Assembly (NCBI GenBank): GCA_003153355.1
Contig: PLYH01000002.1
Coordinates: 173,350 to 237,349 of the forward strand
Length of the DNA: 64,000 bases
Source: Candidatus Peregrinibacteria bacterium
GTDB lineage: Bacteria; Patescibacteriota; Gracilibacteria; UBA1369
Direction: 5' to 3'
The translations under genes were made by a program, and so were the position numbers. The notes under the pieces are model-generated. The model had not been told where the DNA came from. It did not search any database and worked only from the letters and a program-made list of their open reading frames with translations. The first letter of the stretch is position 1, and every line of letters starts with the position of its first letter. Positions 29,033-56,249 of this stretch are shown here, one piece after another.

Positions 29033-30826
29033 CTAAAATCCGCCGAGATCAGTCGATTTATAGACAGGTTTAATTCCCTCAGCTTCGAGGAATTCGCTGA
29101 ATGGCTTCAAGTTTTCCGCTTCATAGCGCAATTTGAAATTTTTGATATCCTCTTGTTTATGAATTGCAGGATCCAGCACAAGCATTTCTACAGGAATAGG
29201 CCTCTCTTTTGATATTTTCGCATCTATCAGCACAGTATAGCCCGCTTTCCGGTCATTTTCTGCACGGTCAAAAATATCCTTTAAATCCTCGATTTTTCTC
29301 GCCGTGTAAGATTTCGCTCCCATTGCCTCAGCGACTTTCGCGTAATCTACGTCCATAAACTCCACTCCCAGGAACCCTGTATTTGTATCTTCCTGCTCAT
29401 CTTTGATGAAACCGAATTGTGCGTTGGCGAAAACAACATTTACAATCGGAAGTTTATATTGAACCTGGGTAGCCAGATCTTGCATGACCATTTGAAAAGC
29501 ACCATCACCTGAAAGTGACCAGACTTGGCGATCAGGAAAATCAAGTTTTGCCGTAATTGCCCCTGGCAGGCCAATCCCCATGGTCGCAAAAAGATTTGAC
29601 GTACGCCACATTTGCTTCGGGTTCAAATGCAGATGACGAATTGATGTCTCAGTGACGTCACCAACATCAATTGAGAAAATCGCGTCCGTTTCAGCACGTT
29701 CATTAATGGCATTATAAATCTGATAGAGCTCTAAATCTCCTGAAGTTTTTGTTTCAAGATTTCTCACATACTCACGCCAATTCTTTATATTGTTAACGTT
29801 TGCTCTCCACCACGCAGTCTCCGCTTTCTCCTCCACCATTTTTGTAAGTTCTCTCACGGCATCACCGGCATCGGCTAAAATGGTCACATCATTCGGATGT
29901 CGCTTCCCCAGGTTCGCTATATTGTTATCAATTTGAATGAAGTTTTTAACATTTTCAAAAATATTCGTCAGTTCAGCGAACGGATAATTATTTCCGACAA
30001 AAACTACGGTATCTGCGTTTGGGAATGCTTCATTCGCCGGTTTTGTCGCGACGCGGTTGGCCGAACCCAGCAACGCTTCATAATCATGCGGAAAACTGTC
30101 AAAATTAATACCAGTCACGGCAATCGGCGCTTTAATTTTTTGTGAAAGTTTTATGACATCCTCGCCTGCTCCCCGTGTGCCAATACCTGCATAGATAATA
30201 GTTTTTTCGGATTGGTTAAGGATTTTCGCCGCCGCTTCAAGATCAGCCGAATTCATTGAAGGATTTGGATATTGTCTATGGGCATTCGCACTGGAGTAAA
30301 ATTTCCTTGCCGGAATATCTTTCCAGCCCAGATCCACCGGCAATTCCACGACCGCGACTCCTTTTTTTGCGTATGCCTGTCGGATCGCTTCATCAATCAC
30401 ATGGGGCAACTGTTCAGCGGTCATGACGGTGCGGTTGTAAACTGAGACGTCGGCATAAATCGGGTTTTCGTTCATTTCCTGAAAAGCATCCATATTCATG
30501 CCTGCCGTTGAGAACTGTCCGATAATAGCCAGTACCGGCATATGATCTTCGCGCGCATCATATAAACCATTCAGCAAATGCGTCCCTCCCGGCCCGGCGC
30601 TCCCAAAACAAACTCCCAGGTGTCCGGTAAATTTTGCATGCATGCTCGCCGCCATCGCCCCGACTTCTTCATGCCGCACCTGTATATAGCTGATTTTGTC
30701 TTTCTCAGCTAAAAGGGCATCCATGAGAGTATTTATTGAGCCGCCTGGAATACCATAAATATGTTTTACTCCCCACTCTTCCAGTACTTTTACTGCTGCA
30801 ATACCAGATTTAATTGTGTCCTCCAT
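29033..30826 (-). CDS. Pyruvate oxidase (ThDP/FAD, acetyl-phosphate-forming)
   Basis: The product (597 aa) closely follows the Lactobacillus plantarum pyruvate oxidase, which converts pyruvate, phosphate and O2 to acetyl phosphate, CO2 and H2O2. Three domains are seen: the PYR domain with catalytic Glu53 (VRHEEVGAMAA), the FAD domain (~180-350, with GSANRVATKPANEA and FVGNNYPFAE), and the PP domain with the ThDP motif SGDGAFQ and the metal-ligand stretch NAQFGFIKDEQED. The segments GQFSTAGMNMDAFQEMNENP and FGSAGPGGTHLLNGLYDARE are shared with the oxidase rather than with acetolactate synthase or the quinone-linked PoxB. Horizontal origin from Firmicutes is likely. The ATG lies 12 bases after the CCA end of tRNA-Tyr, so the gene may rely on tRNA processing for its mRNA 5' end. 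Confidence 0.9.
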   Translation of the reverse strand: MEDTIKSGIAAVKVLEEWGVKHIYGIPGGSINTLMDALLAEKDKISYIQVRHEEVGAMAASMHAKFTGHLGVCFGSAGPGGTHLLNGLYDAREDHMPVLAIIGQFSTAGMNMDAFQEMNENPIYADVSVYNRTVMTAEQLPHVIDEAIRQAYAKKGVAVVELPVDLGWKDIPARKFYSSANAHRQYPNPSMNSADLEAAAKILNQSEKTIIYAGIGTRGAGEDVIKLSQKIKAPIAVTGINFDSFPHDYEALLGSANRVATKPANEAFPNADTVVFVGNNYPFAELTNIFENVKNFIQIDNNIANLGKRHPNDVTILADAGDAVRELTKMVEEKAETAWWRANVNNIKNWREYVRNLETKTSGDLELYQIYNAINERAETDAIFSIDVGDVTETSIRHLHLNPKQMWRTSNLFATMGIGLPGAITAKLDFPDRQVWSLSGDGAFQMVMQDLATQVQYKLPIVNVVFANAQFGFIKDEQEDTNTGFLGVEFMDVDYAKVAEAMGAKSYTARKIEDLKDIFDRAENDRKAGYTVLIDAKISKERPIPVEMLVLDPAIHKQEDIKNFKLRYEAENLKPFSEFLEAEGIKPVYKSTDLGGF

Positions 30827-55252: not shown

Positions 55253-55268
55253 CACGGCCATAATTGAA

Positions 55269-55274
55269 ATTATA
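55269..55274 (-). promoter_or_regulatory. -10 of the SLH operon
   Basis: A perfect TATAAT on the minus strand, with GTTTAC (55297-55292) as a weak -35 at 17 bases. Transcription would start near 55262, right at the start codon region. Confidence 0.55.
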
Positions 55275-55365
55275 ACGAAAATAGAAAAAAAGTAAACTCA
55301 TCCACCGTACGTTTTTTATATTGCTTCCTTATCGGATTTTTTAATTTTTTTTTTGTGTCCAGTTC

Positions 55366-55815
55366 ATGTCTATAGACCCGTCCATAGACAAAATGTAGAC
55401 ACGACGAACTCATGTCTACAATCAAAAATGGCGTGCGGACGCGGATTCGAAATATTTAGACAAGGTAAGTCTGGACTAATGTCTACTTTTGGCTTAAAAT
55501 CCGTGTCGATACTGTCTACCCCATGTCAACAGCATGTCTATGGACAAGCTGCGGACATACCTAAAAATGACGATATGTATGATATAGATAGAAAAACAGC
55601 AAGCAGACTTTTAAAAATATCTGTCCGCACAGTAGACAGATATATCTCCGGTCAAAAACTTTCTCATGAAAGGCGGGATGGAAGGATTTGGCTTGATAAA
55701 AAAGAAGTTATGCAGCTTAAGTCCCAACGCAGAGTGGACATTGCGGTGGACATGTCGACATCTAAAATGTCTATGGACAAGATAGATCTTATCCCCGTAG
55801 ACATGTCGATAGACA
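55366..55815. repeat. Array of TGTCnATnGACA palindromes and half-sites
   Basis: Twelve-base palindromes occur at 55367-55378 (TGTCTATAGACC), 55379-55390 (CGTCCATAGACA), 55535-55546 and 55768-55779 (both TGTCTATGGACA) and 55804-55815 (TGTCGATAGACA). Half-sites TGTCTA or TAGACA also occur at 55396, 55413, 55457, 55480, 55513, 55633 and 55798. Eleven copies of one hexamer (either strand) in ~450 bases is far above chance, about 0.2 expected. The array covers the otherwise empty stretch before the HTH gene and continues inside its coding region, where it imposes the peptide repeats VDMST, MSMDK and VDMSID. It resembles operator clusters, iterons or partition sites; see findings. Confidence 0.85.
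55472..55500 (+). promoter_or_regulatory. Possible promoter of the HTH gene, overlapped by a repeat
   Basis: TGGACT (55472-55477), 17-base spacer, TAAAAT (55495-55500). A TGTCTA half-site (55480-55485) lies inside the spacer, as expected for autorepression. Confidence 0.4.
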
Positions 55816-56249
55816 ATGAGGGGAATACCTTCCATGCGGTTGAAAATGAGGATGGGACGATTGAGGTTAAGGAATACACAAAAAGAGGTTCTCCTCGCCC
55901 GCGGCCCAGGTCAGAAGAAGATGATGTTGAAGTCTACAAAAAGCTCTACGAGCAGCTCCAGCAGGATCTGAAGGAAAAGGAACAGCGCCTGGAAATGGCG
56001 AATTACCGTGTGGGCCAATTAGAGGCCAGTATAAAGGAGACAGTCCCTCTTTTGGACTACAAGCGCGACCTTGCAACCCAGCAGGCTGAAAAAGACCGTT
56101 TACGCAAAGATTTGGATGCCCACATCATGGAGCTCGAGGTCAATATGAACAATTACCGCGAAGAACGTTTTAACAAAAGAATTTATCTCATTCTGTTATT
56201 CATTCTTTTGCTTCTGCAGCCGCTTTGGTTTTTATTCCCTGTGAAATAA
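55575..56249 (+). CDS. Membrane-anchored HTH DNA-binding protein with coiled coil (224 aa)
   Basis: Residues ~5-50 form an excisionase/MerR-like helix-turn-helix (DRKTASRLLKISVRTVDRYI, then the wing DGRIWLDKKEVMQL). Residues ~55-110 are a linker whose first part is encoded by the repeat array. Residues ~115-198 are a strong coiled coil (VEVYKKLYEQLQQDLKEKEQ and onward). Residues 202-221 are one membrane helix, with a five-residue tail. The protein would thus hold DNA at the membrane from the cytoplasmic side. The start at 55575 was chosen because the conserved HTH begins there; the in-frame sequence before it is Cys/His-rich and shaped by the repeats. The most likely ligand is the array itself. 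The layout recalls RacA-like anchors, without sequence evidence for homology. Confidence 0.8.
   Translation: MYDIDRKTASRLLKISVRTVDRYISGQKLSHERRDGRIWLDKKEVMQLKSQRRVDIAVDMSTSKMSMDKIDLIPVDMSIDNEGNTFHAVENEDGTIEVKEYTKRGSPRPRPRSEEDDVEVYKKLYEQLQQDLKEKEQRLEMANYRVGQLEASIKETVPLLDYKRDLATQQAEKDRLRKDLDAHIMELEVNMNNYREERFNKRIYLILLFILLLLQPLWFLFPVK

Follow-up and report, generated by a model that had tools for sequence, protein, structure and literature searches.

A Putative Self-Targeting, Membrane-Anchored Winged-Helix Protein with a Conserved Cis Array in Peregrinibacteria

In this study, a stretch of 64,000 nt (the window) from a 1.46-Mb genome of Candidatus Peregrinibacteria, a small group of bacteria that are uncultured, was analyzed. 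The window carried a dense array of TGTCTA half-sites at the gene of a protein with an N-terminal winged helix-turn-helix (wHTH), a long coiled coil, and a C-terminal transmembrane (TM) helix. Conservation of the array and the predicted fold argue strongly for a membrane-anchored wHTH protein that targets its own gene, with a cis array maintained by selection. A self-encoded, centromere-like DNA–membrane anchor that also autoregulates its gene is the leading reading of the role of the array, with its chance put near even on grounds of sequence and analogy.

The Array and Its Gene in the Window

Exact TGTCTA/TAGACA hexamers numbered 12 within 55367–55815 (449 bp) and nine across the remaining ~63.5 kb; the window total of 21 compared with 11.5 expected. 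The cluster noted in the preliminary description was thus real, and its count of 11 in about 450 bases was corrected to 12. When half-sites were counted as TGTCNA/TNGACA, 22 were present within 55340–55830. Within the array, five palindromes differed from TGTCNATNGACA by no more than one mismatch (55367, 55379, 55535, 55768, and 55804), and three of them were exact, in agreement with the at least five near-copies described before. The only further one in the window was at 30273, and dinucleotide shuffles gave a mean of 1.8 per whole window. The site positions (55356–55815) and the gene (55575–56249) showed that the array extends from the region upstream of the gene through the first third of its coding sequence, as had been described. 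An AT-rich flank (55262–55350) was present beside the array. The in-gene sites of the window gene encode the peptides VDMS, MSMD, VDMSID, and RTVDR. The features are as follows.

55575–56249, + strand: gene of the membrane-anchored HTH protein, 224 aa; homology of 54 relatives starts at the ATG at 55575 or a few codons later
55575–55748, + strand: winged HTH, MerR/HTH_17-like, residues 1–58; AF2 pLDDT about 97, HTH_17 match in 61 of 61 members, Foldseek matches to RacA, Xis, BldC, and Par
55749–55913, + strand: disordered linker, residues 59–113, holding most in-gene sites; AF2 pLDDT mostly below 60
55914–56180, + strand: long helices/coiled coil, residues 114–156 and 159–202, with the conserved ANYRVGQLE...VPLL stretch
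56181–56237, + strand: C-terminal transmembrane helix by hydropathy, residues about 203–221, with the LQPLW motif
55356–55546: upstream part of the array (TGTCNA/TNGACA), sites at 55356, 55367, 55385, 55396, 55413, 55457, 55480, 55504, 55513, 55524, 55535, and 55541; kept in orthologs and helically phased family-wide
55633–55815: in-gene part of the array, sites at 55633, 55735, 55747, 55753, 55755, 55768, 55774, 55798, 55804, and 55810; family-wide excess over synonymous recoding
55535–55546: exact palindrome TGTCTATGGACA, upstream of the gene
55768–55779: exact palindrome TGTCTATGGACA, in the gene
55804–55815: exact palindrome TGTCGATAGACA, in the gene
55367–55390: adjacent pair of one-mismatch palindromes, TGTCTATAGACC / CGTCCATAGACA
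55472–55500, + strand: predicted promoter-like hexamers within the array, TGGACT-17-TAAAAT; weak consensus match

The ATG at 55575 is the probable start codon, and the open frame runs on further upstream. A divergent S-layer-homology gene lies on one side of the gene, and two convergent DUF881 genes lie on the other.

The three-dimensional structure was modeled by AF2 with 61 family members. The model showed a kink at P158 between the two long helices, followed by a hydrophobic C-terminal helix. A C-terminal hydrophobic segment (hydropathy ≥1.8) was found in all 76 non-redundant orthologs and ended at most 6 aa from the C-terminus. The model and the hydropathy bore out the proposed architecture of HTH, long coiled coil, and C-terminal membrane helix. 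The protein was most strongly conserved at RT.DRY in the HTH, ANYRVGQLE in the coiled coil, and LQPLW in the TM helix. Among the 61 members scanned, no library model covered the protein beyond HTH_17, and no known family label spans its full length.

Uniqueness of the Array in the Genomes

A genome-wide map of the motif had been set beforehand as a refuting test, and the motif was not spread over the genome. Four copies of the exact palindrome were found in the whole genome, three of them at the array. The remaining copy, in the VAYIRFASVYRHF-coding stretch of an nrdR-like gene, is probably a coincidence. TGTCTA-to-TAGACA pairs at most 30 bp apart occurred outside the array only at this nrdR-like gene. 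In 29 genomes, 91 direct repeats with 9–12 bp spacing were located within 800 bp of the gene. The 42 matches away from the gene were scattered and about as frequent as in the backward-pattern control; therefore, array-rich lineages as a rule have a single array per genome, located at the gene. The array clusters are essentially unique to the HTH-gene locus in each genome.

Two other repeats were observed. In one genus (L086/L087 region; G035:C13:28074, G042:C9:26209), a second conserved TGTCTATGTTGTCTA pair was located ~730 bp upstream of the gene. Dispersed TGTCTAGACATTGTCTA-like repeats were present far from the gene in G027, G038, and G042 (e.g., G027:C11:37813, G042:C19:716) and are possibly another repeat element.

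Conservation and Selection on the Array

The conservation of the array was investigated from −300 to +330 of the HTH start in 76 ortholog loci. A total of 989 TGTCNA sites was observed vs. 87 expected from the flanks, and 58 of the 76 loci were individually enriched at p < 1e-3. In the control window on the neighboring gene of the same loci, 63 sites were found vs. 70 expected. Orthologs therefore keep the array, a point on which the preliminary description could have failed, and it was kept between proteins with only about 26–48% identity. When loci with at least 6 exact sites were defined as array-rich (48 loci), this status required 9 changes on the protein tree, compared with 22 for shuffled labels.

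Selection within the coding sequence was investigated by synonymous recoding of the first 330 nt of the genes with local codon usage. Family-wide, 269 exact in-gene hexamers were seen vs. 41 expected, and the rest of the genes beyond 330 nt contained 2. The window gene alone had 4 in-gene hexamers vs. 1.65 under recoding (p 0.05), which was marginal. The in-gene sites were mostly in the disordered linker and yielded VD, MS, MSID, and VDNVD peptides; peptides of the VD/MS type were missing from the linkers of array-less families. The earlier idea that selection acts on the DNA inside the coding sequence and forces the peptides was thus upheld at the family level and marginally so for the window gene itself.

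The spacing of half-sites was analyzed in 54 representatives at <60% identity with 500 randomizations. Upstream of the gene, same-orientation spacings peaked at 11, 22, 33–34, and 44; TGTCTA-to-TAGACA spacings at 6, 17, 28, and 39; and TAGACA-to-TGTCTA spacings at about 9, 18, 30–31, and 41. This helical phasing of ~11 bp was matched by none of the 500 randomizations. No helical phasing of the in-gene sites was seen in the same representatives, because these sites are bound by the reading frame.

Array-Poor Lineages and a Second HTH Family

In the array-poor lineages f3, f7, and f15, the protein and its TM tail were retained, but no more than a few sites were present, all near the promoter. 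The operator of these families was TAGTCA..TAGACA..(−10-like TGTTAAGAT)..TAGACA around the promoter. An anchoring function of the array is therefore not universal unless the sites have moved.

A second HTH family was reached by a composite operator pattern search in five f3 genomes. The matches were mainly own promoters and scattered coding sites, and a regulon of the composite operator was rejected. The second family, HTH_17 with a coiled coil, was order-wide (52 of 59 relatives); its member in the genome of the window encodes 145 aa (G000:C3:204546-204980, L252). Outside f3, members had a basic/aromatic C-terminal tail (e.g., PKKKSWYKFWK, PKKKWYQFWK) and no TM helix. From its sequence, this tail looks like a membrane-binding amphipathic end.

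Most second-family members had a single promoter-near TTGACTAGTCAA-like palindrome, with no more than two mismatches, at −15 to −90. In f3, the first gene had a promoter-proximal operator only, whereas 3 of 5 second HTH genes (L222, L224, and L225) had several TTGACTAGTCAA palindromes both upstream and in-gene, in the linker. The in-gene copies in f3 were exact at +258 and +294 and encoded LTSQ. Since this array stands at the second gene and has a different palindrome, the layout can arise at another HTH gene. Shifted motifs at the second gene, TTGATTAATCAA and TGTATA, were observed in L223 and L226 of f3. No clear array was found at the first or second HTH gene in f7 and f15.

Phylogenetic Range and Genomic Context

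The gene was present in 54 of 59 relatives from the same order; each of them had 1 to 3 matched stretches and, in most cases, a single gene. Within the phylum, full-length matches ended at the class boundary, and the remaining matches were to the HTH alone; family f18 of the same class did not have the gene. The named loci were mostly Candidatus Peregrinibacteria/Gracilibacteria MAGs. Two contigs labeled Nitrospirae/Nitrospirota (L043, JAACEU010000088.1; L060, JAUVQE010000016.1) also carried the gene, branching inside Peregrinibacteria, and their labels are probably bin contamination. Several draft assemblies ended a few hundred bases or less from the gene (G043:C27, G035:C13, G002:C21, G010:C57, G004:C47, and G001:C5), some at most 35 bp from its 3′ end.

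YbeY, SpoU methylase, the DUF881 pair, MurI, and GuaA recurred in about half of the loci. With such widespread neighbors, the gene is a chromosomal core gene, and the plasmid partition site suggested before was not borne out for this syntenic, chromosomal locus. No protein relatives were found in viral contigs and plasmids. One viral-contig match to an 18-bp piece of the array was an unrelated phage that did not encode the protein. A mobile-element origin was ruled out by the widespread synteny and the lack of relatives among viral contigs or plasmids.

ParB and the Replication Origin

ParB_N was found neither in the window protein nor in its genome, and it was absent from 47 of 59 relatives; the existing matches were in open frames of 155–635 aa. 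Canonical ParB (TIGR00180) was above the cut-off in 2 of 145 genomes of the class. Complementarity with ParB was rejected, as ParB is rare class-wide, also in f18, which does not have the window protein.

The position of the array relative to the origin was investigated by GC skew in G362 (whole circle), G000 (C5 and part of C2), G025 (C4/C6), and G050 (C1, too coarse to judge). No skew switch at the gene was found in G362, G000, and G025. In G362, the only single-contig relative, dnaA was 420 kb from the gene. No DnaA-box cluster was found beside dnaA in G362; dnaA is therefore not a good origin marker here. The 64-kb window had no DnaA-box cluster either. The origin link raised by the preliminary description was not supported by the skew or by dnaA, though the latter is a poor marker.

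The skew of G362 (PGYE01000001.1, a 998,424-bp contig; samples L137–L156 and L208–L213) was negative everywhere (−0.11 to −0.47), as if replication ran in one direction. Typical skew has been reported for Peregrinibacteria, with a uniform pattern only in some Microgenomates (PMC7143001).

Proposed Role and Rival Explanations

In the proposed anchor, the tail-anchored protein would bind the TGTCTA half-site cluster through its N-terminal MerR-like wHTH. This cluster covers both the promoter of the gene and the initial third of its coding sequence. The protein would bind cooperatively along one helix face and oligomerize through its coiled coil, giving a nucleoprotein complex. Through the TM helix at the C-terminus, this complex, and with it one locus of the chromosome, would be held at the cytoplasmic membrane, and autoregulation would be a built-in by-product. 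Three elements of this model are inferred: binding of the array by the HTH protein, binding in the membrane-embedded state, and a purpose of anchoring or segregation that goes beyond expression control. The DNA–membrane tether proposed before fits the architecture, the structural neighbors (RacA and pSK1 Par), and the scarcity of ParB in the class; a link to the origin was not supported.

Dense autoregulation alone, also proposed before, would make the protein a membrane-tethered self-repressor, with many sites for steep cooperative homeostasis, in-gene sites as a roadblock, and no positioning of the chromosome. It is a serious rival, almost equally likely, or it coexists with the anchor, which is ranked slightly ahead. 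The sites straddle the promoter, the array-poor families retain only an operator around it, most members of the second HTH family have one palindrome near the promoter, and the genome has no other clusters. However, 10–18 sites, up to 250 bp into the coding region and constraining the protein, seem excessive for expression control, and the membrane tail kept by all members would be left unexplained. Sites deep in the coding region and the universal tail favor the anchor, whereas the array-poor lineages with a simple operator favor regulation. The recurrence of the layout at the second gene of f3 speaks for the anchor, and the failure to find an array in f7 and f15 speaks against a universal anchor array. 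Further points against the anchor are the missing association with an origin or skew switch, the rarity of ParB also where the window protein is absent, the single cluster in place of dispersed sites such as ram, and the lack of phasing among the in-gene sites. The two roles may both hold, as in single-protein plasmid partition.

The remaining explanations are much less probable. That another DNA-binding protein targets the sites, with the HTH gene as a mere host of the array, is improbable. Binding by the HTH protein is itself deduced, which leaves some room for this explanation, but the array always lies at the gene of a wHTH protein whose fold binds such sites, and in f3 a different wHTH gene hosts the array, which has a palindrome of its own. 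A replication-control or iteron-like element bound by the HTH protein (origin, fork barrier, or copy-number control) is very improbable. Helically phased repeats beside the AT-rich flank would suit it, and the uniform skew in one relative means that an origin need not show a switch; against it are the three genomes with no skew switch at the locus, the window with no DnaA-box cluster, and the existence of array-poor lineages. For chance, a compositional artifact, or a functionless repeat, the short motif length is the sole point in favor. Conservation across many genera, controls at background level, and the recoding and ortholog-locus counts (269 vs. 41 and 989 vs. 87) refuted this explanation, and its probability is negligible.

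The anchor reading, extended to the group, leads to a more speculative suggestion. ParB-less Peregrinibacteria might use a chromosomal one-protein centromere system, in which an array in the promoter and coding sequence dictates the linker peptide. The layout might have evolved independently, around a different palindrome, at another HTH–coiled-coil protein in at least one family. For chromosome positioning and segregation in minimal-genome bacteria that do not have ParB, one protein and one 450-bp cis element would be a concrete candidate. The coding sequence is also held hostage by candidate DNA-binding sites, as a disordered linker is shaped, across large evolutionary distances, by selection on the nucleotide sequence.

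Comparison with Known Systems

The best PDB matches of the model in Foldseek were the RacA–DNA complex, followed by Pukovnik Xis, BldC–DNA complexes, and the pSK1 Par–centromere complex. The first match (5i44) had a probability of 1.00 and an E of 0.016, in a fold common to many MerR-like proteins and not specific to RacA. VIA over the wHTH only gave Z of 8.4 (Xis), 8.1 (BldC), and 6.4 (RacA and Par), which may reflect the mere common wHTH arrangement. In the sequence profile comparison with the PDB, RacA was third with a non-significant E of 0.44. No description of a self-targeting HTH and array system was found in the literature.

ParB/parS resembles the window system in its cluster of palindromic sites. 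One parS site of B. subtilis lies inside the parB gene spo0J. ParB belongs to another protein family and has no membrane tail, and the window protein has no ParB domain. pSK1 Par is a single protein with a wHTH of the same fold (8csh among the Foldseek matches) and a coiled coil. Its repeats are located just upstream of its own gene. The pSK1 system is plasmid-borne, whereas the window system is chromosomal, has a TM tail, and has sites that run into the gene. The centromere-like repeats in cis adjoin the gene, as in single-protein partition systems.

BldC and Xis have the same wHTH fold (VIA Z about 8). The BldC wHTH lines up head-to-tail on direct repeats, and proteins of this type bind direct repeats cooperatively with periodic contacts on one face (PMC5859096). 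In the window system, the predicted fold and the helically phased repeats would be compatible with such a mode. BldC and Xis differ in having no membrane tail, AT-rich direct repeats, and roles in transcription or recombination.

RacA/ram, which anchors the chromosome of Bacillus subtilis, is similar in its MerR-like wHTH, coiled coil, DNA-to-membrane tether logic, and repeated centromere-like sites (PMC6593407), with the tether role of the window protein being proposed. RacA meets the membrane via DivIVA and has no TM helix, whereas the window protein has its own TM tail. The ram sites are dispersed and densest near the origin, and the window system is a single self-encoded cluster with no skew switch.

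RocS of Streptococcus, which acts in chromosome segregation beyond ParABS, has an N-terminal MerR-type wHTH, a coiled coil, DUF536, and a C-terminal membrane element, namely an amphipathic helix (PMC11500499). The same account gives pSK1 Par a disordered C-terminal domain, DUF536, and a RocS-like amphipathic end, and its passages on RocS mention no site array. The window protein shares the wHTH, coiled coil, and membrane-active C-terminal end with pSK1 Par and RocS, with a TM rather than an amphipathic helix, and DUF536 was not found in it by Pfam scan. The RocS tail is nearer in type to the basic/aromatic tail of the second HTH family than to that of the window protein. The plan of HTH, coiled coil, and membrane element serves DNA positioning in RacA, Par, and RocS (PMC11500499, PMC6593407), and the logic of the proposed anchor resembles that of RacA/ram, pSK1 Par, and RocS.
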